A stretch of DNA of 64,000 nucleotides from positions 124,001 to 188,000 of the forward strand of contig NADL03000710.1 in the NCBI GenBank assembly GCA_002205965.3, written 5' to 3'. The DNA comes from Kappaphycus alvarezii (lineage: Eukaryota; Rhodophyta; Florideophyceae; Gigartinales; Solieriaceae). Position 1 is the first letter of the stretch, and every line of letters begins with the position of its first letter. Positions 2,215-64,000 of the stretch are shown piece by piece. The notes under the pieces were generated by a model. The model was not told the origin of the DNA, made no database searches, and was given only the letters and a program-made list of their open reading frames with translations. The translations under genes were made by a program, and so were the position numbers.

Positions 2215-2691
2215 GTTTCAACGCTAAATTAACCGCAAGAATACGCCTGTAGCACTTTCTACGAACGCAAAACGTAATCTCAGTCCAAAGGGGGAGCGTA
2301 GCAAGGGTTTGCTGCATATAGGCTCTGAAATCGTAATTTTTTTCGTGGTGTGATATCCGGCTGTTGACCATCAACTGCTACGTTGAGTGGCAATTTTTTG
2401 TTGACTCTCTCGAACTTTACTCTTCCGAATTTTACTCTACCTATCTCATTATTTGGTTCCTATGACTCTCCATGATCCGAAAAGTCTAAAATGTACATCG
2501 ATACAAGAGTAACATGTAACACTAGAGCATAAGTAGCCCACTTTACAAAAAAAGAACCTAGTGCAGAGGGAGAGTCTACCAAATAATTGCCACTCAATGT
2601 AGCAGTTGATTGTCTACAACCGGGTATTACGCCACGAAAAAAAACTCAGGTTTCAGAGCTGAGATGCAGTAAAAACTCTTGCTACACCTTC
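2215..2691. repeat. Imperfect inverted repeat with 192-bp spacer
   Basis: The arm 2292-2395, read on the minus strand, matches the arm 2588-2691 on the plus strand at about 80%. Both begin ATTGCCACTCAA next to the spacer and run outward to CTTGCTAC. The spacer 2396-2587 is T- and CT-rich and itself has short complementary pieces near its ends. The right arm stops exactly where the solo LTR begins (2692), so the original arm was longer; the left arm goes on to about 2215. It could be two head-to-head copies of a repeat or the ends of a fold-back element. Confidence 0.7.
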
Positions 2692-4179
2692 TGTTGTTAC
2701 GAAAAACGTCCTTTCTGTAGGAGAGCGGTCCTCTCCACAAACTTCTGTCTTCATCTTCCCTGTAGGTTTTCAGAAACAACGCTTCCCATCAATTTTCTTT
2801 TACGAACAAAGTCATGAAACAAATTTTCCCCTATGAATCCAAAATCACTGCGCTACATAATTTATATTTTATTTTTGTGCATTTTGGTCCTTCTTTTTCA
2901 AAAAAGAAATCTTTCCACCCGTGATCCGCTTCGTCCCCGAAATTCATGTTTCGATATTTTCAAGCATATTTTTAGTTATTGCCCTTATTGCATACAAATT
3001 CAAAGCTGCTGCATTGCTTAACATTTTTTATTTCGTCCAAGGATGTGAAACTCTTCGAATACATTGCCCTATTTAGAGTCCGAAATCGACGTCGTTGAGG
3101 CAACCCCCGCCGTCAACTACCCCATCGGCTCACCCTTTTTTTGCCCTCAACATGACCACCCTCTGCCCCTCTCCCACCATTGCCAAGTCACCCAGAGCTT
3201 CCAGTCACCTCAATGCCCAGGCTCCGATGGCAAATGGACCAACTGATTATGATGAATACCGCAGAAAAATGAACCTGGAGCGCGCTCAGGAGTTGATCCA
3301 CCGGCATTGCTTCGAGGAGACAAAGGAAGCAGGGAAAGAGGTAGTGGAAGAGGAAGAAGAGGAAGAGGAGATGAAGAGGAGGATTAAGTAGACCTGTGTT
3401 AGCCGCTAGTGTACAACGGTGGGGTAGCTGCTGTCGAGAACGAAGAGTAAAATGAGGGAGTAATCGTGATCTCTGACTATTCTGAGAAGGATGAAGAGAA
3501 GGACGAAGAGGACAAGATGAGGGGATACATGGAAAGTTCTGGAATGGCTAGGAGGGAGATGGACAGTATGGAACAGGTGGACTCGACCCTGGAACCGGAT
3601 GGGGGCATCTTCAGTGGTTTAGATATCTCCCAGGGGTAAATAGAGAACTATTAACCGTTCGCGGATATTTGTGGGTGCTGCTTGGGTGGAATGAATATTT
3701 TGGGGGAATTGTTGGCTTTGACTTAGAGGAATAAGATTTTAAGGAAGAATTCTAGATAGTTATGCTGATAGTATCTGTTGTTAGTCTTTATTTTTCACAC
3801 AATTTCTTTCGATGCATTTTATGGTTCTTAGTATGATTTTGAGACTTTAGGGTTAGCAAAAAGTATATATAAGCTGATTAAACTACTTTCTTTTGTGGAG
3901 GTCAGTCAAGTTAGCAGATAACTTCAAGTCAAGTCCGGAGTAGTAAGAATTTGAGAGCCAGCTTCAGACCTGAGAAACATTTTTCTTACGCTGGTCACAG
4001 AGCATCAGTGGTAGACCCTGTCCCCTCTATACTTGCTTGTAGCCCTTTCAACTGTAGTTCTTACTCAACTCTTTTTATTCTTTCAACTGTACCATGGTGG
4101 CACTTTTGTCGCTCGCAACAGGTCTTTCTTGGGGTTATTGGTTCTGAGTATCTCTCCTCCTGACGATATATCCCTATCA
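2692..4179 (+). mobile_element. Solo LTR with embedded acidic ORF (copy C)
   Basis: The block begins TGTTGTTACG and ends CCCTATCA. It is flanked by the direct repeat CCTTC (2687-2691 and 4180-4184), a 5-bp target-site duplication as expected for Ty3 integrase. No internal retroelement domain lies between the ends, so it reads as a solo LTR of about 1.49 kb. Its downstream part (about 3800-4179), with a TATA box GTATATATAAG near 3865, matches the LTR of the complete Ty3 element. Its upstream part encodes the acidic ORF instead. Confidence 0.85.
3152..3734 (+). pseudogene. LTR-encoded acidic protein, copy C (broken)
   Basis: A member of a five-copy family of unknown function. The N-terminal part starts at an ATG at 3152 and carries the family pattern of a K/S/P-rich leader, then GPTDYDEYRRK and an Arg-rich helix, then a poly-Glu tract (to about 3391). 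After a stop, the C-terminal part continues with VIVISDYSEKDEE, TLEPDGG and PFADICG, with several more stops (for example in the IENY-PFAD region). It is clearly a decayed copy. It sits in the U3 part of the solo LTR, upstream of the LTR TATA box. Confidence 0.75.
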
Positions 4180-4360: not shown

Positions 4361-4605
4361 CCAGTATTTATTAGTGATTGATTACCGTATTCATGGTGTG
4401 TGTGTTTATGTTTAATATACGACTCACTAAGAAATCAACCAATATATGCTTCCGACTGAATAATGTATCAACAGCAAGTATCCATATTACTTTGATCATT
4501 GAGGCATGCCTGTGCAACACTGCAAAGTCACTATAAATCAAGTCTGAATCAGGTGATTACTGTAGAGAGTATCCATGATGGGCTTAAGGGAGAATAGCAA
4601 ACCCA

Positions 4606-4712
4606 TTGCTGTATCGGCATACCTTTTTGAGTCAATTGTGGTTGTCTGAAAATCTTGAGATAGATCGAATACATCTTTTAAGAACAAAATACCCAAACAG
4701 CTGCAAACGCCC
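4606..4712 (+). repeat. 3' end of family I element (tail a)
   Basis: A second tail-only copy directly behind the previous one: ATACCTTTTTGAGTCAATTG, TGGTTGTCTG, ATAGATCGAATACATCTTTT, AAAATACCCAAAC. It is followed at once by coding remains of a longer family I copy. Confidence 0.7.
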
Positions 4713-5228: not shown

Positions 5229-6339
5229 GATAGGGGTAAATCGTCGGGAGAAGAGAAACACACTTAAGAAACTAACAATCAATGAAGTCCTCTTATTTCC
5301 CATTCTCTAAATCTGATCCAAACAACTCCTCTAAAATATCCATGCTGTCCAAGCAGTCCCCACAAATATCTGCAAACGGCTCATAGCTCTCTATTCCCTC
5401 TTGGGAGATATCTAAACTACTAAAGATATATCCATCCGGTTCCAGTGTCGGCACCACTTTTTCCATACTTTCCAGTCCACGCTCCACCAGTCCAACCCTT
5501 TCTATGCTCCCTGTTCCCTCATCCAACTCGTCCTCGTCCTCATCCTACTCCTCTTTCTCCTCTTCCTCCTCTTCTTCCTCCTCTTCCTCCTCTTTCTCCT
5601 CCCCTTCCTCATAGACCACCTCAGGGGCTACCCACTCCTGAAAGATCTCCCCAGCTCCCTCCTCGATGTCCCACTCCTGCCCCTTACGTACCTCCTCCGT
5701 CTCATCATCAATAAAGAGACGACGCACGAATTCGATGGCTTTTTTCTTGTTTTGCCGGCGCAGGTAGTCCTCGCGGTCAGTAGGTCCGAAAGGGAGTAGG
5801 AGAATAGAGTTGAGGGGCGGGGATGGCGATTTTTCGGAAGTGACTTTCGATGGGCGTAGATTGGTCATTGTGGTAGGGTTTGGGGAAGGGGAGGTAATGG
5901 AGGGTGTTTTGGGTGTGTGGGGGAGAGGGATGATGATCAAAATGATCGGGGACGTTTAAAACTTGGAATAAAGGGGTTTAAGTAGGCTCCCGGGGCAAGT
6001 TCTATAGATTAGGTATAGGTAATGTAAATCTGTAAGGGATTTTGTAGTAGTGAATTTGCGCCCTTTTTCTCAAAAAAACGAATTTGGAGAAAGAAGTAAG
6101 CAAAAAAAGATAAAGAACTTGATTCGGGATCGATTCAGAGGGGTAGATACAGTGTAAAAATATCTAGATAAAATGGAAGTAAATTTGGAGAGGACCGCGG
6201 TAATGATAAGCGAGGCTCAGGGAGGACGAGGAAGGACCGGAACTATAAGCAAATTTGGACAAGGAGAGGTAGTGCAGTATACTAAAGGTCTGTGGATGAC
6301 GGCGAGAAAAAATCAGTTCCTATCAGCACGCGTCTAACA
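5229..6339 (-). mobile_element. Solo LTR with embedded acidic ORF (copy A)
   Basis: On the plus strand it starts TGATAGGGG and ends TAACA. The flanks are CTTAC (5224-5228) and GTTAC (6340-6344), a 5-bp target duplication with one change. Removing it joins the family I frame seamlessly: ...GGNDFIDLT at the left and TFVNPL at the right, as in the uninterrupted copy near 38700. Only about 30 bases of the shared LTR terminus remain before homology jumps to the 3' flank of the acidic ORF, so most of the promoter/R/U5 half has been deleted. Confidence 0.85.
5293..5868 (-). pseudogene. LTR-encoded acidic protein, copy A (one stop)
   Basis: A single frame of 192 codons from an ATG at 5868 to a stop at 5293, broken only by one TAG at 5545-5547 inside the poly-Glu region. 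Domain order: leader MTNLRPS, the conserved block GPTDREDYLRRQNKKKAIEF, FVRRLFIDDE, EEWVAPE-like motif, a Glu tract, then TLEPDGYIFSSLDISQE, PFADICGDCLDSMDILEELF and a final GSDLENGK. It has no transmembrane segment or known enzyme motif; charge suggests a soluble or nuclear protein, but that is a guess. A TATA-like TTTAAA stands upstream (near 5958 in this orientation). Confidence 0.8.
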
Positions 6340-6675
6340 GTTACCTTCGTGAATCCCCTCGCTCCCTCCAACAGGAGAGTGAGGGCCTTCAACCCGATGT
6401 CCTCCCTGAACGCGGCGCGAAATGCAAAGCAGAGAAGATATCAATCTTTTATCGCGACCTCCACCAGAGGCATTCCCGTTCTTCTGCCAATTTCCACTCT
6501 TGGAGGGTGGCACCCGGATGCATGTGCAGTACTAAATGACGTGGCAAGGAACGTGGCCGTGAGGGCATTGGAGACGTACGGAAAGGTTCGGGAGCTTTTG
6601 ATGCAAAGGCACGCTGCAGCAGCCGTCAAGTTCAATGCGGCCTGCTTGATGGCTGTCCTGAAGGTAGCTTTTTAG
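6340..6675 (+). pseudogene. Family I non-LTR-like pol, C-terminal end
   Basis: This continues the copy interrupted at 5228. The frame runs TFVNPLAPSNRRVRAFNPMS, AARNAKQRRYQSF, STLGGWHPDACAVLNDVARN, VRALETYGKVRELLMQRHAA and ends ...KVAF at 6675 without internal stops. The NAKQRRY and LGGWHPDA blocks are the most conserved across the window's copies (38760, 46030, 54520, 55900). The frame also reads open into the LTR upstream (from 6292), which is fortuitous. Function in the family would be at the end of the nuclease-like domain. Confidence 0.75.
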
Positions 6676-28746: not shown

Positions 28747-29811
28747 TCACTGCTCTTCTTCTGCTTCCGTTAGTGTTCGCTGTCTTATTGATAAAATGTA
28801 TGGTCTCTCAAACGGGTACGGATGCAACTGATTACCAATATGATGCTCTAAAAAGTAGGTTCGCATTACTGGTACCTCACTTTGTAGCATAGCCTCATAT
28901 ATTGGTTTGATCACATCGAGGTGGGGTTGAATACATTCTTCTTCCGTGACTCTTCCGAATCTTCCAAGAGTGAAAAAATATATGTGATATGCAAACTCTT
29001 CTGGAAGATGCCGGAGGAATGGATGTCGATAAGAAAAGAAGACGCGCATCATCAAGAACGAATCTTCGTAAGATAAGTGCGGTCCATGTAGCGCCCTAAA
29101 ACATAAACAGATGCTTATCATGAAATAAGAAATGACCTGCGCATCGTTCGCATCCTCGGAGATATTGCGCAGCCAAAAAGATAATCTTCTTCTTCCGACT
29201 GTATGCTGTGCATGGTTGTGAAGGAGAGCTAGAGATGAAGTTGTGGTGGACGGTCCCGATGAATGGCCGCGACCAGCTCCTGACGTACTGGGACCTGCAC
29301 GAGGTCCTCTCGGGGGACGACCGGAACCTCTTCTGGGCGGGTTGTTGTCTCCTGAAGGTCCTCCTCTGGTCATCATCACTGCTTCAGGAGGATCCTCGCC
29401 GCCTCCAACGTTCCCAATTTGTGGCGGAGAAACGTAAGGTTCCCATAGAGGATACGGGACCAGCCTGTATTCCATATCCGGGGGTAAGGCGTAACCTCTC
29501 AGTCGCACGTCTTGGTTGTTCTTGAGAAATACGTAAATTGGACGGATAATATTCAGATACGTTTGCGACAAGTCTCCAGCAGCTACCATTCCATATCTTC
29601 CTATAGAGTAATGATATATTACCTCCACAAACTCTGGACCTGCTTCCGTGAACCTTCCGTTTTGGAATGAAAATAGAACTCTTATTAATAGTCGGAAATC
29701 TTCTTCAGGTAGCAATGGTCCGTTCAACGTACGAAAACATAGGCATATATTAATGTAGAAATGGATGATTACGTGGAGTTCGTAGTAGTCCCGCGTAACG
29801 AGATGATCCAT
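28747..29811 (-). CDS. Extra ORF behind integrase: duplicated 114-residue domain
   Basis: An intact 354-codon ORF in element sense, starting at an ATG (29811) that overlaps the end of the integrase frame by 43 bases and stopping 34 bases before the 3' LTR. Residues 14-127 and 226-339 are two copies of one domain, aligned without a gap and identical at about 45 of 114 positions. Shared blocks: F-x-I-x-ICLCFR-x-L-x-GP, RV-x-FS, EF-x-x-x-IY, GR-x-G-x-V, IxPIY, L-x-PYP and PY. The linker (128-225) is rich in Gly, Pro, Arg and Ser (GSGRPPRGPRAGPSTSGAG). There is no transmembrane anchor, fusion peptide or signal peptide, so it is not an obvious env. Function unknown. Confidence 0.85.
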   Translation of the reverse strand: MDHLVTRDYYELHVIIHFYINICLCFRTLNGPLLPEEDFRLLIRVLFSFQNGRFTEAGPEFVEVIYHYSIGRYGMVAAGDLSQTYLNIIRPIYVFLKNNQDVRLRGYALPPDMEYRLVPYPLWEPYVSPPQIGNVGGGEDPPEAVMMTRGGPSGDNNPPRRGSGRPPRGPRAGPSTSGAGRGHSSGPSTTTSSLALLHNHAQHTVGRRRLSFWLRNISEDANDAQVISYFMISICLCFRALHGPHLSYEDSFLMMRVFFSYRHPFLRHLPEEFAYHIYFFTLGRFGRVTEEECIQPHLDVIKPIYEAMLQSEVPVMRTYFLEHHIGNQLHPYPFERPYILSIRQRTLTEAEEEQ

Positions 29812-31011
29812 TCCCAGGCCCTTTTTCCTCCCATAGGAATCATTCTATAGTTAAAGATGAGTATGCCCCGTGGTTGCGCATAGTCCTGTGTGAGAAGGAA
29901 TTCTTCAGGCCTCTGATGGTAAGGGACCAGACGACGTGCATGGATGGCCCTCCTTGATCTCTTCCCTGAGCTTGAACAGAGCTGATAGTGCGGGTGTCTT
30001 TCCTCCGTGACGATGCAAGGGTTCGAGTACTTGGTTTGGAAGGCCGGCCACTTCACAGCCTGCTGCATTGCTTTTCCATGTACTACAAGTACTTTAGAGC
30101 CAACTGAAAAGGTTCTGACTGCAGGTTCTGCATCCTTATTTCTTGTCTGTGTTAGCGCGCGGTGTGATCTCCAGCCTTCGGTGGCCAGTAGTTCAACTTC
30201 CCTACTCTCTTCATCGATAATATTTGTTTCCATGTCTCTCTGTAACATTCTAGGAGCCCTTCCGTACATTAGCTCGAATGGTGAGCGTCCATTTCTTCCT
30301 CTTCTTCGACGATAGCCGTATAACACTTTTGGTAAGGCATCTTCCCACTGGATTTCATTCTCCGACATAGTTTTCGATATTGCTCGTTTGATGGTTCCAA
30401 CCATCCTCTCCGCTTTCCCGTTGGACATAGGAGCGTATGCGAGAACGGTCTTCAGCTGAATCCTTTCTCTTCCAAAAAACGAAGCAGTGAAGTTGCAGTA
30501 AAACAAAGGGCGTTATCCGAGATGATCCTTTTTGGAAGACCAAACGGTTCAATTATTTCTTTTTCGATGAATCTCAGTACCACCTCAGCATTTGCCTCCT
30601 CACTGCAACTGCTATTGGCCATCCAGTAAGATGTTCCACCCCTATAAGGAGATATTTGTTTCCGGAAGAAGTTTCCTTGAACGGGCCCGCGAAGTCAATT
30701 GAGAAGGTTTCAAAGAGACCGGAAACTGGAAAACTTAGAGTTGTCTTATACTTCCGTATTGGAGTGAATTTTTGGCAGTTGTCGCAGCTTTTCACGAAGT
30801 TATAGACGTCCTTATGGATACCGGGCCACCAGAATCTCTCAGTTACGAATTTTTTGGTTGTTTCGAGATCCCAATGCCCTAGCTCATCATGGAAAGTCCT
30901 CAAGATCTTCATTCTTTCTTTCAAAGGGGCCACTAGTCGGGGACCGGCTTTAGTGTGCCGGAAAGTTTCCCATTCCACAATGTAAAAGCCTTTTGATTCC
31001 TGCGTACCCAA
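29769..31011 (-). CDS. Integrase of the complete Ty3 element (frameshifted)
   Basis: Three consecutive frames. 31011-30574 has the HHCC zinc finger (H41, H46, C76, C79 of that frame) and the first catalytic Asp in ETFSIDFAGPF. The next frame, about 30600-30455, carries IISDNALCF with the second Asp. 30506-29769 carries YAPMSNGKAERMVGTIKRAI with the catalytic Glu and, further on, a C-terminal module with KYSNPCIV and ARRLVPYH, like the GPF/Y module. The shifts near 30590 and 30460 are one-base deletions relative to the expected frame. It catalyses insertion of element cDNA, with 5-bp target duplications as seen here. Confidence 0.88.
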
Positions 31012-32762
31012 TTTCGGTGTTCAAGATCAACCTTTCTCATTTCTAGTCCATCGAGGAATTTGATCAGTCCGTGAATATTAGCTTCGTACTCGTTATCGTT
31101 CGGCAACTGCAACTCGGCGACTCCGACGATGTCCTCCGAAGCTTTTTCATTTGGAATCAGTGCGTCCCTCAAGCGGGATAGGTAATCGGCAGGCTGATTA
31201 TTGCGTCCGGGTCTATACACAATTTCAAACCGATATTCTGCGAAAATGTCGAGCCATCGGGCCAAGCGGTGATGTACATCCTTCTTTTGGAATGCTGTTT
31301 TAAGTGCCTGGTGATCAGTTATCAAGACAAATTTCTCGAGTGATAAAAGGTATACGCGAAACTTTTTCAGCGCGAAGACGACAGCTAGCGCTTCTTTCTC
31401 GCAGACTGAGTATCTCTTTTCCGCATCATTCAGAGTTCGGCTTGCGAATTGAACAGGGTGTAGTCTTCCGTTTTCATCTTTTTGGGACAAAACGGCACCC
31501 AAAGACCGTTCTGAGGCATCTGTCTCCACAACGAATGGTCTCTTGAAATCTGGGTACATGAGAACTGGGGGGACACATAGCTTATCTTTAAGCTCCTGAA
31601 ATGCAGTTTCCATTTCCTTGTTCCAGTAAAATTTTCCGTTCTTCGTAGTGCTGGCATGTAACGGTGCTGCAGTCTTGGCGAAATCTTTGATAAATCTTCT
31701 GTAATATGAGGCCAGTCCTAAGAAGCTTCGGACCTCCGTCTTTGAAGCGGGCCTTGGTGCCAACTTTATTTTTTTCGTTTTCTCTGGATCCACTCTAATT
31801 CCCTCTTGGTCGACGATATGACCGAGTAATTGGATAGAAGTTTTCGCAAAGAAGCATTTGCTCAACTTAATTTTCAAGCTATACTCCGATATCCTCTCCA
31901 CAACTGTCTTGACGTGCGAGATGTGCTGATCCAATGTTTCTGAGAATATGACGACATCATCGATATAGACTCTTGCGAATGGAAGTCCTTTCAAAACCTC
32001 GTTCATCATTCTTTGGAATGTAGCTGGTGCATTCATGAGACCAAAAGGCATCACTTCGAACCTGAACGTACCGGCTTTGCTGGTAAAGGTTGTTTTTTCC
32101 TTACATTTTTCATCCAATGGAATCTGCCAATAGCCAGTGTAAAGGTCAATTGAGGTGAAATATCTCCCGTCCTTCAGGTCCTCGAGGATCTCCTCCATGT
32201 TCGGAATCGGAAATCGATCGGGTATCATTCTCTGGTTCAGTTGTCGGTAATCGACGCAAAAACGCAGCTTTCCATCCTTCTTTGGTGCGACCACAACTGG
32301 AAACGACCATGGGGATGAAACTGGTCGAATAATATCATTTTTCAGCATACTTGTAACATTTTCTGAGATAAATTGGTCATATTTTGGCGGTTGACGTCTA
32401 GGCTTGTGGTAAATCGGTTGAGTGTCGGTAAGTTCGAACGAGTGAGTAACCGGTACACTTGCTTGTCTTAAATCTGAAACGCTCCATGCAATTACTTCGG
32501 AAGATGTTAACATGTCGGATATTTTCAGTGAGGCGGGGGCGGGAAGGTGCTGCACTTTTCCTTGGATTTCTGCCATTTGGCGCCCTTTTTCTTCTTGATC
32601 CTCAACCTCAATATTTTGAAGGACCTCTTCCGTCGTGCTCACATCTTCATATATGGAATTCGACGTATTCTTATTTTCTTTGCAAAGGTAATCTTCTTTC
32701 ATGCTCCGAATTCTGTCCTTTGATTCGATATCATCGCAAAAAGAAACACATTCGGGTTTCAA
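30933..32762 (-). CDS. Reverse transcriptase and RNase H of the complete Ty3 element
   Basis: An open frame of 609 codons. RT: THSFELTDTQPIYHKPRRQP, PVVVAPKKDGKLRFCVDYRQ, FTSIDLYTGYWQIPL, FGLMNAPATFQRMM, and the catalytic YIDD at residues 266-269, then LLGHIVDQEGI and RSFLGLASYYRRFI. RNase H: FVVETDASERSLGAVLSQ (first Asp), YSVCEKEALAVVFALKKFR (Glu), LITDHQALKTAF (Asp) and a typical RPGRNNQPADYLSR end. All catalytic residues are present. The frame is lost at a short T-run near 30960, and integrase goes on in another frame. Confidence 0.95.
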   Translation of the reverse strand: MKPECVSFCDDIESKDRIRSMKEDYLCKENKNTSNSIYEDVSTTEEVLQNIEVEDQEEKGRQMAEIQGKVQHLPAPASLKISDMLTSSEVIAWSVSDLRQASVPVTHSFELTDTQPIYHKPRRQPPKYDQFISENVTSMLKNDIIRPVSSPWSFPVVVAPKKDGKLRFCVDYRQLNQRMIPDRFPIPNMEEILEDLKDGRYFTSIDLYTGYWQIPLDEKCKEKTTFTSKAGTFRFEVMPFGLMNAPATFQRMMNEVLKGLPFARVYIDDVVIFSETLDQHISHVKTVVERISEYSLKIKLSKCFFAKTSIQLLGHIVDQEGIRVDPEKTKKIKLAPRPASKTEVRSFLGLASYYRRFIKDFAKTAAPLHASTTKNGKFYWNKEMETAFQELKDKLCVPPVLMYPDFKRPFVVETDASERSLGAVLSQKDENGRLHPVQFASRTLNDAEKRYSVCEKEALAVVFALKKFRVYLLSLEKFVLITDHQALKTAFQKKDVHHRLARWLDIFAEYRFEIVYRPGRNNQPADYLSRLRDALIPNEKASEDIVGVAELQLPNDNEYEANIHGLIKFLDGLEMRKVDLEHRNWVRRNQKAFTLWNGKLSGTLKPVPD

Positions 32763-33032
32763 ACTTATCCTAGAATCCAGTCGTCATCTGTTTCAAACCC
32801 GGAATCATAATCGTCCCATGCCATGTTCATTACCCCCGAGGGTACCCTTTTCCACTTCCGAAAGTGTTAGTTGGTTCCGAATCTTCGCTGTCATAGCTAG
32901 AAGTGAAATCTTCACTGTCCGTTTCTTTTAAATCTTCAGGATGCGTGCTTTTGTCGAAATCCAGGGGCATCTTCACGGTTCTGCCGTCAATATTAACTGA
33001 AACCATTTGGTTGCCCAAGTCAATGCATGTTC

Positions 33033-34073
33033 CTAGTCTTTCCATTGTGGGCAGCCAATGATTGCATCGAAAGGGAGATCCGGCATGACAAGAAAGTCTA
33101 CATCAACTTTAGAGTCCCCAAAGAACACGGAAACCTTGTCAACAGTGCCCATGCATTTTGAGACGGTTCCATCCGCTACAGTTATTTTTCGAGTCGTTGG
33201 AGTAATTTCGAGACCTAGATCTGTCACCAAAGTTTCTGAAATGAGGTTTGGAACAGCACCCGAATCGAAGAGAGCTTGGGTTTTCATACCCAATACTTTG
33301 ACTGGTACCAGCTTAAGACGTCTTGGTGCTGTCGAGGCCGATTGAAGAAACAGTTTCTTACCCTTAGCGGACTTATTAGACCTGATAATTTTTTTGAGTT
33401 CTTTTCTCGCATCCTCTGCGTCGCCCCTCAAAAGTTGACCAAACGTTATCCCAGTTGGGGCCGATGCAAGCTCAGCCACCAAATTGTACCTCTTCACATA
33501 CTCTAGTACGTCCTTAGAGATACTCTTAACTTTCTTACTCTTTTTCGTCTTCTTGGCCGGAGTGACTCCCACTCCTGGAACAACTTGATCAGACCTCTTG
33601 GTTCGAGGAGGTACAGGTGCTGGGATATGCTCCAGCATTCCATACTCTAGCCTAGGTTTCTTCGATAAAATGTTCCCTTCCCCATCCCTTTTTGTCACAT
33701 TGACTTGACTAATCTCTTCAGCGATGGATACGTTACCGGCATCCGTCAACCTTTGATCCCTTCTATTTTGTAAGATTTTCACCTCTGGTCCTGACTCACT
33801 CCTTGCTTCCGATAAATTTGCTCTTCTGTTGTCTTTAGACCAGCAGTTACTTTCATGATGCCCATATCGACCGCACTTTGCACAACGAGTGTTTCTATGT
33901 GGATTATCAGGACACCTGTTTGCAAAGTGTCCAGGCTTGTGACAGTAAGAACAGACTTCTGCGGCCTTAGGGGCCCCAGACTGGTTCTTCTTAATGGTAA
34001 GAGTAAGGCTTTCCAACTGCGAGGTTATCATGTCAAGTCGATTATCGAATCGGGTTTCCAACCTTTCTTCCAA
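33033..34073 (-). CDS. Nucleocapsid and protease of the complete Ty3 element
   Basis: This frame has no ATG and continues Gag after a one-base shift in an A-run near 34136. A Leu/Glu coiled-coil-like stretch comes first. Two CCHC zinc knuckles follow, CSYCHKPGHFANRC (residues 41-54) and CAKCGRYGHHESNC (64-77), which bind element RNA. A basic linker precedes the aspartic protease with ALFDSGAVPNLIS (active Asp about residue 270) and DAIIGCP. The frame is lost at a C-run near 33045; the next block, 33045-32830, holds LGTCIDLGNQMVSVN and an acidic spacer leading to RT. Confidence 0.9.
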   Translation of the reverse strand: MEERLETRFDNRLDMITSQLESLTLTIKKNQSGAPKAAEVCSYCHKPGHFANRCPDNPHRNTRCAKCGRYGHHESNCWSKDNRRANLSEARSESGPEVKILQNRRDQRLTDAGNVSIAEEISQVNVTKRDGEGNILSKKPRLEYGMLEHIPAPVPPRTKRSDQVVPGVGVTPAKKTKKSKKVKSISKDVLEYVKRYNLVAELASAPTGITFGQLLRGDAEDARKELKKIIRSNKSAKGKKLFLQSASTAPRRLKLVPVKVLGMKTQALFDSGAVPNLISETLVTDLGLEITPTTRKITVADGTVSKCMGTVDKVSVFFGDSKVDVDFLVMPDLPFDAIIGCPQWKD

Positions 34074-61706: not shown

Positions 61707-61805
61707 GGGGAAATGATTTGGTTCTTTAATTTTTGAAAAGTGTGGTTCGGCTATCCCCCGGTGTATGCCAGACATGCTCAGGATAATGGGTAGTGTGAGT
61801 CCATG
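61707..61805 (-). repeat. Family I tail c, reversed
   Basis: GGGGGAAATGATTTGGTTCT, AAAGTGTGGTTCGGCTATCC, CCCGGTGTATGCCAGACATG are the complement of tail c at 39041-39135. Confidence 0.8.
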
Positions 61806-61891
61806 TTGGTGTCGGTCGTTGTGTTGTTGAGTTTAACTGCGTGCACCCGACGCTTCGCCTACATATATATACAAGCGCCGAAAATGCATGT

Positions 61892-61946
61892 GGCCAAAGT
61901 GCGGCCGGCGGTTCCTACAAAACAAATAAATTTCAGCACTTTGGCC
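61892..61946. promoter_or_regulatory. Perfect 11-bp inverted repeat upstream of H3-mimic ORF
   Basis: GGCCAAAGTGC at 61892-61902 and GCACTTTGGCC at 61936-61946, 33 bases apart, just behind a TATATATA run at 61863-61870. It could be a paired protein-binding site or an RNA hairpin. Confidence 0.5.
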
Positions 61947-62541
61947 TAAAATATAAAAATAACTCGAAAAGCACAGTATTGTTCTGTACTGTACTTAAAA
62001 AATACTTAAAACAATCCAGAATCCAACATTTGTCCCCGTCACCACCCCGCCTCCAAAACGGACCACGGGGCCGCATACTGCACTGTACTGTACTGTACGT
62101 TTCAGTATTTCAAATAACAGCCCGGCCATCCCTTCCAACCCGAGCCTCGACACAACCCCTCCTGTTTCCCAGGCTTTGCTCTCGGCTTGTGTGCCTGTGT
62201 GCCTTCCCCAGCTTTTAGGCGTCCTAGGCTTGTGCGCCTTGTTGCTGGCTCGCTCTGTAGGCTTGCGCGCCTCTTTTTTCTCCTCGGCCTGTGCACCTCG
62301 TGTTTAATGAAACCTCTGGGATTGTGCGCCCTGTGTTTCTTGCAAGCTTGTACACCTATTCAGCTGGTTTGCCTTCCTTTCTCGAGCGCCTTGTAGGCCC
62401 GTGCTTCTCCACGTGATCTTACTCCCCTCATCCTGCGGTGGCACAACGACGGTGAGGCGGAAGCTGAGAAGTACGGAGGTGCAGTTTCAGAATTCCTGCA
62501 TACTCGTGGAAGCTGATCTTTAGTTGCGCACTAACACTGCA

Positions 62542-63303
62542 TTGGCGAGGACGAAGCAGTTGGCTAGGTTGAGCACGGGAGGAAAAGCGCCTCGGGAGAA
62601 GATCGCTACAAAGGCCCCGCGGATGTCAAGGGAAGTGGAAGCTGAAGCCCAGTCCAAACTAATTCCGCAGACAAGGGCACTTCTTGGAAGGTCGAGCATT
62701 ATTAAGATCAAACACATGTCGCCAAAAGGGCCCGAGTTCGTTGTTTTCACCTCTGGGTCTCCGAGCATGACGAGGGTTCGCACTTGCTACTTTCCAATCC
62801 CATTTGGGAAGCATATAATGGGCGCAGTTTCCGCCCTGCCTACCAAGGAGCTTACAAAAGAGGTCGCCTGCCAACTGGGCTTGACAGAATCCCTTTATGA
62901 CTCCCGTATCTATAAGAGGGTGTCGGAAAAAGACTGGATCGTCAACTCTATAGTATGGGACGAGGAGGAAGCGGTGTACATGGGAGAAGATTAGGCCACC
63001 AGGGAATTCCATACTATCCTTCTATACACCCTTTCCTTTGAGGGTGGAGGCAGTTCCTTCATGCACGATATCAACGAGGAGGTTTTATTCACGCTGGGTT
63101 CGGACATTCGTTGGCAGGCGATCTTTGAAATCCACGAATGGTGCCAGGAACTCCCTGTCCGGAAGCTTCTTCTTTCATTCACTCGCTGTCGGGAACCCCG
63201 CGATGATGAAACCAAGTACCGCTCTTTCCCGCTCCCTAAGATCCCGTTCGATGACCAGACAGAAGGGTGCATTGGCGCTTCCATCGCAGATGGGTTGCGA
63301 TAA
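62542..63303 (+). pseudogene. ORF with histone H3 tail-like N-terminus (one TAG)
   Basis: One frame from 62524 to 63303, interrupted by a single TAG at 62992. At the position where H3 has its start Met stands TTG (62542-62544); no ATG precedes. Residues at 62545-62628 align with H3 residues 1-28 at 21 of 28 positions: ARTKQLARLSTGGKAPR, then EKIATKAPRMS. K4, K14, S10, K23 and S28 are kept; K9 is Leu, K18 is Glu, K27 is Met. The histone fold is absent. Instead an unknown region follows (SSIIKIKHMSPKGPEFVVFT, FPIPFGKHIMGAVSALPTKE, VACQLGLTESLYDSRIYKR, WIVNSIVWDEEE) and, behind the TAG, FHTILLYTLSFEGGG, WQAIFEIHEWCQELPVRKLL. It may be an accessory gene of a mobile element. Confidence 0.65.
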
Positions 63304-63440
63304 TTAGGGAAGGAGGGCGACGCAAAGCGTTGATTTGACTACTTTAGGTCAAATATGGCTCGATGCCACACGAACCCGTTTAGAGGAGGCCGTATCCGAG
63401 ATCTAAGGGATGCCAAAAGCACCTACCCACCAGGGAGATT

Positions 63441-63743
63441 GTGCTGGAAAAACCACTGCCGATGTACCCTTCCGTTAAATCTGCATTGGACTTGGACCCC
63501 GCCGTCTATATCGTCTCCATAGAAGGTTCCAACGGCGTCTGGCACTGTGTTGCGATGAATACTCAGACGGGTCACCGTATCGACCCTGGTGAAACGTTCG
63601 TTCTTGAGCTCTACGAGAAGACCTTGGTTGAGTGCGTTGGCGGAAGTTCGACCTTCATCACGATACTGGAAGTTCGAAAGCTGTCACTTAGAAGTGTACA
63701 GGCATCGAATCGTCCCCGCAGCCGTGGCAGGACCAAGTCTTAA
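63441..63743 (+). pseudogene. Possible cysteine-peptidase-like ORF
   Basis: An open frame of about 100 codons that begins without ATG (first ATG at 63462). The stretch YIVSIEGSNGVWHCVAMNTQ, then TGHRIDPGE has the His ... Asp spacing of papain-like/C48-like peptidases seen in many mobile elements (H-x-V-A-x ... I-x-DP). A matching catalytic Cys is not identified. It follows the H3-mimic ORF after 137 bases in the same direction but another frame, so both could be parts of one decayed gene. Confidence 0.4.
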
Positions 63744-64000
63744 ATCCGCAAACCTCGCGGCGCGAATCGGAGGTGAAGGGGAAACCGAGTAGCTCCAACA
63801 GTAGGGTTCTACAATGATCCAACGGGTTCCATCACTCAATATTCTTCTTTGGTAACTCTCTCCTTCTATTTTTCTTTCGTTTTCTTTTCTTTTTGTGTAT
63901 GCATGCATTTAAAAGCAACGAAACAATTGTATTCATCAAACGATCAAAAGATATACTGTTCAAACAAACAGGGTAACAGTTCTGCTAAAGGGTAACTTTG
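63744..64000. other. 3' flank of the H3-mimic locus
   Basis: A pyrimidine-rich tract (63850-63893) followed by A-rich sequence and a repeated GGGTAAC (63972 and 63990). No gene. Confidence 0.4.

Follow-up and report, generated by a model that had tools for sequence, protein, structure and literature searches.

The central finding of this study is that a retrotransposon carries, on the strand opposite its pol genes, an accessory gene whose predicted protein begins with the N-terminal tail of histone H3, altered at K9 and K27. In the window (the whole 64,000-nucleotide stretch of DNA that was analysed), plus-strand positions 62545–62628 translate into a segment that is identical to H3 residues 1–28 at 21 of the 28 positions, with Leu9 and Met27 in place of the two lysines and with K4, K14 and K23 retained. 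This assignment is based on the translation of 62542–63306 and on the comparison of copies, and it agrees with the initial annotation, which had described the same degree of likeness and the same residues. In the best-matching tails of other copies, up to 23 of 28 residues are those of H3. At the level of sequence, our comparisons show that such tails have been kept by selection across many families and in another species, and that K27 and the R8–K9 pair have been preferentially replaced. The overall picture suggests an element protein that is built to resist or jam host silencing, and we infer that it acts as an anti-silencing factor.

The gene as a whole occupies 62542–63743 on the plus strand and is broken in the window copy, which had seemed dead from the outset; it starts with a codon other than ATG and, within the 62542–63303 part, its frame contains one stop codon. 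The gene is longer than the annotated end at about 63303 implied: in a tblastn search with the related protein P0003 (409 residues), residues 1–289 align to 62542–63417 and residues 273–403 to 63348–63740, and the stop codon is found at 63741–63743. From its sequence, the protein appears to combine a full H3 N-terminal tail with a middle region, a predicted papain-like domain and a basic C-terminus. The absence of a histone fold downstream of the tail, already pointed out in the initial annotation, is borne out by Pfam searches of the parts that follow the tail, which were empty for histones and for anything else. As the Pfam histone model also found no match in the frame of copy L013 or in eight relatives, a histone variant was rejected.

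The middle region (62629–63198, plus strand) belongs to no known family according to Pfam and the alignment with relatives. For the part that follows (63199–63680, plus strand, approximate limits), structure models and fold comparison suggest a papain-like fold (clan CA), and the relatives have Cys, His and Asp in the corresponding order. The predicted triad codons on the plus strand are 63268–63270 (Cys), 63543–63545 (His) and 63582–63584 (Asp), and in the aligned rows (of 21) the triad residue is present in 15 of 15 cases for Cys, 13 of 14 for His and 14 of 14 for Asp. The protease-like domain may act on some target, perhaps chromatin or ubiquitin. It also opens up an alternative in which the tail is a pro-segment or self-recognition element, that is, the substrate-like part of a papain-like domain that cleaves H3 tails, with the changes at positions 9 and 27 tuning cleavage or self-inhibition. 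The occurrence of the predicted fold and of a conserved Cys-His-Asp triad on the same protein would fit this idea, as would residue 20, which is always Leu, Ile or Val. However, H3 itself is hydrophobic at residue 20, the changes centre on methylation sites, and in the structure model the tail is disordered and is not observed inside the predicted cleft; we consider this explanation improbable. Matches of relatives to Mad3_BUB1_II and OCRE were below the Pfam cut-off and were disregarded. A viral origin was rejected, as scans of IMG/VR with P0003 and P0013, which used short patterns and could detect close relatives only, returned no relative, and in a Foldseek comparison no viral model matched with an E value below 0.17.

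When copies and their downstream DNA were compared by blast, the gene was found to be part of a single unit bounded by direct LTRs. The LTR at the 3' end (in pol orientation) is located at 61804–62041 on the minus strand of the window, where it was recognised as a direct repeat and its inner edge was set by comparison with L013; the outer LTR edge, TGTTGGTG, recurs at this position in copies that differ in their flanks. The partner LTR, which is interrupted, begins past the window end, at window coordinate 68660 (L029:4660). Over their first 189 bases the two window LTRs differ by 0.127, and a 5-bp target duplication was not seen for this copy, the right LTR of which is the interrupted one; copy L013 is bordered on either side by a 5-bp target duplication, CCCTG, and its LTRs diverge by 0.051. 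Between the LTRs, the minus strand encodes aspartic protease, reverse transcriptase, RNase H and integrase in Ty3/gypsy order (pol genes at L029:32–4648, past the window end), while gag is weakly recognised, with a match to the Ty3 capsid model below the cut-off. The H3-tail gene lies on the strand opposite pol, between integrase and the 3' LTR, and pol is convergent to it in 17 of the 20 fetched copies; L009, L022 and L024 have no pol match within their 10 kb. A leader common to the family copies (62042–62541, plus strand) extends from the LTR to the antisense gene and is a possible site of an antisense promoter or 5' UTR, and the stretch at 63744–64000 leads from the gene towards the convergent pol genes beyond the window end. 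Given the fit of the LTRs, of the target duplication (in L013) and of the domain order, we consider that this element, which we term family A, is a Ty3/gypsy LTR retrotransposon.

Some structures in or around these copies deserve a brief mention. The ends of the shortened copy L009 form a 195-bp inverted repeat with 94% identity (4435–4629 and 6281–6479), which looks as though an LTR had become inverted. The window contains a second Ty3/gypsy-type element at 30933–34073 (minus strand), with aspartic protease, reverse transcriptase and RNase H domains, and an open frame of 354 residues at 28747–29811 (minus strand) that matches no Pfam family.

The source genome was searched as an assembly of 336 Mb in 884 contigs. 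When window positions 62400–63400 were used as a DNA query, at least 41 matches, including the window itself, were obtained with 77–100% identity, a lower bound as 40 of 135 candidates were scored. Family A was sampled as the window copy and 20 other copies, each read with 10 kb, and 18 of these 20 begin with ATG. Position 9 is occupied by Leu in 20 of the 21 copies and by Phe in one, position 27 by Met in 19 and by Ile in two, whereas K4, K14 and K23 are lysine in all 21. The tail changes had initially been suspected to be decay in part, but this is refuted, as not one of the 21 copies has a lysine at position 9 or 27. Being fixed across copies, the replacement of K9 and K27 is a trait of the family and not the result of decay in the window copy. 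Six further family A copies, for which short tails only were read, have neither of the two lysines, and two of these six carry Glu at position 4. Variants common to several family A copies are distributed over the three codon positions as 23/23/40 (chi-square P 0.035, a weak test) and singletons as 165/143/168 (P 0.31), and so weak a signal is to be expected if the copies were already dead when most of the differences appeared. Position 18 is Glu in one copy group and Lys in another, a sub-family change that affects a further H3 lysine.

Tails of this kind are not confined to family A. A search of the same genome with H3 returned 55 rows, of which 10 represent true or variant H3 and 45 are tails on non-histone frames. 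Together with the at least 41 matches of the DNA search, these 45 rows outside H3 genes indicate that the likeness to the H3 tail is not due to chance. The true H3 genes account for six rows (five loci), and the three full ones that were read have a normal tail including K9 and K27. Four rows are variant H3; the two variant genes at C660:372234–372670 and C609:1093448–1093887 are near-identical, with an unmatched tail and a histone part that is 58–68% identical, and perhaps represent a centromeric or replacement variant. Six of the 45 non-histone tails are in copies that had already been read, and the remaining 39 were then read. These 39 are biased towards H3-like tails, as they were found by similarity to H3; position 9 is Leu in 19, Lys in 12, Arg in six, Met in one and Gly in one, and position 27 is Val in 13, Lys in 12, Arg in five, Met in three, Ile in three and Ala, Phe and Gly in one each. 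Four tails that were chosen by the similarity of the body, not of the tail, all have Leu9 and Val27.

We distinguish nine families in this genome, eight of them beyond family A (L9 M27). Family B has L9 R14 V27, family C has H2 R9 R14 with K27 kept, and family D has N8, L23 and R27 with K9 kept. Both K9 and K27 are kept in family E (N4, with the R8–K9 pair intact) and in family F (N4 K8 R14). Families G (R4 A8 A14 I27), H (S8 M9 R14 V27) and I (R9, K27 kept, with a stop in the tail) are represented by one locus each. A search for the body with P0003 gave at least 108 matching rows (102 scored of 987 candidates), 88 of them with internal stops and 20 stop-free, many of the latter being partial; open frames thus exist, although most copies are broken. 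Beside the family C tail gene on L041 (C754), the stretch 2676–3096 reads, from an inspection of its frames by eye, like a transposase of the Tc1/mariner type, and other tail families may therefore sit in other types of element.

Relatives were also found outside this genome. A protein search with the L013 frame gave two, with 34% identity each, one of which is from Chondrus crispus. By two profile searches at least 34 family members were collected (P0001–P0013, P0015–P0034 and P0036, among the top 120 of 462 rows); the other rows among the matches listed are histones and a few odd proteins, and all listed members with a species name are from Chondrus crispus, P0010 being a transcriptome ORF. 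On the strength of these Chondrus relatives the host is taken to be a probable red alga. A countable tail is present in 25 of the 34. P0019 (R9, K27 kept) was left out because its tail contains an indel, P0010 was dropped as its called start lies inside the tail, and P0005, P0011, P0018, P0021, P0022, P0030 and P0032 were dropped as their called ORFs lack the tail. Also dropped were the true histones and P0014, P0063 and P0070, in which the H3 tail belongs to an unrelated or broken protein. Position 27 is never lysine in the 25 tails (seven Val, seven Arg, five Leu, two Phe, two Gln, one Ile, one Gly), and position 9 is Arg in nine, Ala in seven, Lys in five and Leu, Asn, Gln and Met in one each; in all five tails that keep K9, R8 is changed to Gln or Ala. 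P0002 from Chondrus combines L9 with I27, and P0034 has K8, M9 and G27.

A transposon context (LTRs, pol) is established for family A only, and the annotation of the Chondrus members gives them no name. Both points would suit a host chromatin gene family, of which one member was captured by the family A element. We give this explanation little credence, as the body matches in one genome, mostly interrupted by stops, look mobile, as do several Chondrus clusters of 4–10 members among the matches listed, and as the gene lies inside the LTRs in family A.

To compare tail positions, 21 lineage tails were grouped by hand from the 21 family A copies, the 39 own-genome tails and the 25 proteins. K27 is changed in 17 lineages, the highest number among the 28 positions, followed by K9 and T22 (14 each), S28 (12) and R2 and Q19 (10 each), with a mean of 5.0 over all positions; the other lysines show five (K4), six (K14), five (K18) and three (K23) changes. 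Taken together, K9 and K27 are changed in 31 of 42 cases versus 19 of 84 for the remaining lysines (Fisher P 6.5e-8), where P values serve as a guide only because the lineages are not independent. In 20 of the 21 lineages R8, K9 or both are changed, and family E alone retains the two of them. The new residue is Met, Ile, Leu, Val or Phe in 12 of the 17 changes at K27, in five of 14 at K9 and in two of 19 at K4, K14, K18 and K23; the rest of the K27 changes are to Arg (two), Gln (two) and Gly (one), while seven of the 14 K9 changes are to Arg. In 15 of the 17 lineages with a changed K27, R26 is retained.

In each of the 55 pairs formed by 11 sequences, pN/pS of the tail lies within 0.11–0.63, and pS is for the most part close to saturation. 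For the tails of families A and B, pS is 0.74 and pN 0.11, and for a host H3 gene and the family A tail the values are 0.84 and 0.19. Synonymous sites close to saturation in combination with conserved tail residues point to selection and not to decay. In 36 pairs among nine relatives, the tails are 50–82% identical and the bodies 18–69%, which is not what one would see if an H3 exon had been copied recently. Decay or a one-off capture of a host H3 exon, with random changes at K9 and K27, might be suspected from the broken window copy, but has next to no probability, given that the residues are fixed within the family, that the families are many and diverged, that synonymous sites are close to saturation and that relatives occur in another species. 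For family A it is refuted by copies that all lack K9 and K27, and the single chance capture that had been considered at first is ruled out by the many copies and the relatives elsewhere.

The host genome contains domains of PRC2, with an E(z)-type CXC domain at two places and the VEFS-box of Su(z)12 at four; a K9 methyltransferase was sought with PF05033, which matched neither the host nor the control genomes. Met or Ile at position 27 blocks PRC2 in the EZH2 active site, whereas Glu, Lys and Arg are reported not to do so, and the oncohistone H3K27M and the host protein EZHIP both block PRC2 by way of a hydrophobic residue (PMC6513997). In fission yeast, H3K9M is described to trap Clr4 (PMC5030085), and in the red alga Cyanidioschyzon up to half of the repetitive elements are reported to bear H3K27me3 (PMC5405695). 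Because of the PRC2 domains in the host, the known blocking by M27 and trapping by M9, and the presence of H3K27me3 on red-algal repeats, we think that a decoy role is the most likely one. We see about an even chance that the antisense accessory protein is a retrotransposon-encoded anti-silencing decoy of the H3 tail, with trapping in the families that have M/I27 or M9. The tail would offer the host enzymes that act on H3 tails a pseudo-substrate in which the recognition context is largely kept, but which is unmethylatable at K9 and/or K27. In families with M/I27 or M9, it would occupy the SET active site and so trap PRC2 or the K9 enzyme, in a manner that may be likened to oncohistones and EZHIP.

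Trapping would be the strongest form of such a decoy, and is plausible by analogy for Met or Ile at position 27 and for Met at position 9. We infer it and claim no more, because Arg, Gln, Gly or Leu, none of them a known trap, is found in several families, and K27 is retained in families C, E, F and I and in P0019. A general trap is disfavoured, as Arg accounts for half of the K9 replacements and as K27L is reported to leave PRC2 globally unaffected (PMC9976889). The main rival to trapping is a methylation-proof bait, in which the tail brings coactivators and readers of the K4 side or of the unmodified tail to the integration machinery or to the element itself, nothing is trapped, and K9 and K27 are lost solely to keep host silencers from marking the tail. 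The bait gains from the same K27L report, and from Arg, Gln, Ala and Gly at positions 9 and 27, which are unmethylatable yet not known as traps. It gains further from the conservation of K4 in 16 of the 21 lineages and of Q5, S10 and G13 in all 21. On the other hand, Ala1 is replaced in three lineage tails, and K4, which many K4-side readers require, is absent from five. The preference for hydrophobic residues at 27, as opposed to K4, K14, K18 and K23, also speaks against the bait, which we regard as possible but rather unlikely as an overall explanation. For the families that keep K27 or have residues not known as traps, an unmarkable tail or a bait for readers is the better fit. Returning to the decoy, we hold more tentatively, and at somewhat less than an even chance, that these proteins are oncohistones of red-algal retrotransposons, whole-tail decoys in which the silencing lysines were replaced repeatedly and M/I27 and M/L9 trap PRC2 and the K9 enzyme, coupled to a protease domain and diversifying as they compete in an arms race with the enzymes of the host that act on the H3 tail.

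Short mimics of histones occur in viruses, as in influenza NS1, and in host enzymes, and cover a few residues only. They resemble the present case in that a parasite protein copies H3 residues, but here the copy extends over the whole tail. Like H3K27M and EZHIP (CXorf67), family A has a hydrophobic residue after Arg at position 27 (A-A-R-M-S). EZHIP is a host protein that imitates about 12 residues around K27 (PMC6513997), whereas the family A tail spans 28 residues from Ala1, is changed at K9 as well and is borne by a transposon, and its inhibitory action is presumptive. An EZHIP-type Met or Ile at position 27 in an H3-like context occurs in family A (19 Met, two Ile) and, as Ile, in family G and P0002, while most other lineages have Val, Leu, Phe, Arg, Gln or Gly. 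The likeness to H3K9M of fission yeast consists in an unmethylatable hydrophobic residue 9, which is Met in family H and P0034 and Leu in families A and B and P0002; H3K9M is, however, an engineered histone, and Leu9 is not among the residues described in the available part of that report (PMC5030085).

The antisense ORFs of Grande, RIRE2, Retand, PvRetro13 and Boty have the same position between pol and the 3' LTR, the same orientation and the same Ty3/gypsy context (PMC7264820). As far as that review describes them, those ORFs have no clear similarity to database proteins and their functions are unknown, whereas the ORF described here starts with an H3 tail. VANC of the Arabidopsis VANDAL transposons is an anti-silencing protein encoded by a transposon, as the protein described here would be if the proposed role is right, but it acts on DNA methylation at its own motifs, and the abstract on it makes no mention of a histone tail (PMC5735166). 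Among the titles and abstract starts of the open literature, we found no prior report of proteins such as those described here.

If the decoy interpretation is true, evolution has repeatedly produced in these proteins a natural equivalent of H3K27M and K9M, the mutations known from cancer, which a genomic parasite turns against silencing. A review has proposed an ancestral transposon-repressing role for Polycomb (PMC8788455), and a transposon protein that counters silencing at K27 in a red alga would attest directly to a contest between Polycomb and transposons. Among the antisense accessory ORFs of LTR retrotransposons, this one would be the first with a readable function, and such ORFs in general would gain a testable role. 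The tail variants would amount to a natural mutational scan of the H3 residues that matter to host enzymes.

A possible further case is P0014 (eukprot GEZN01), a different protein that combines VWA and U-box domains with an H3 tail changed at residues 23 and 27; it may be a tail mimic of another eukaryote that is unrelated to those described here.
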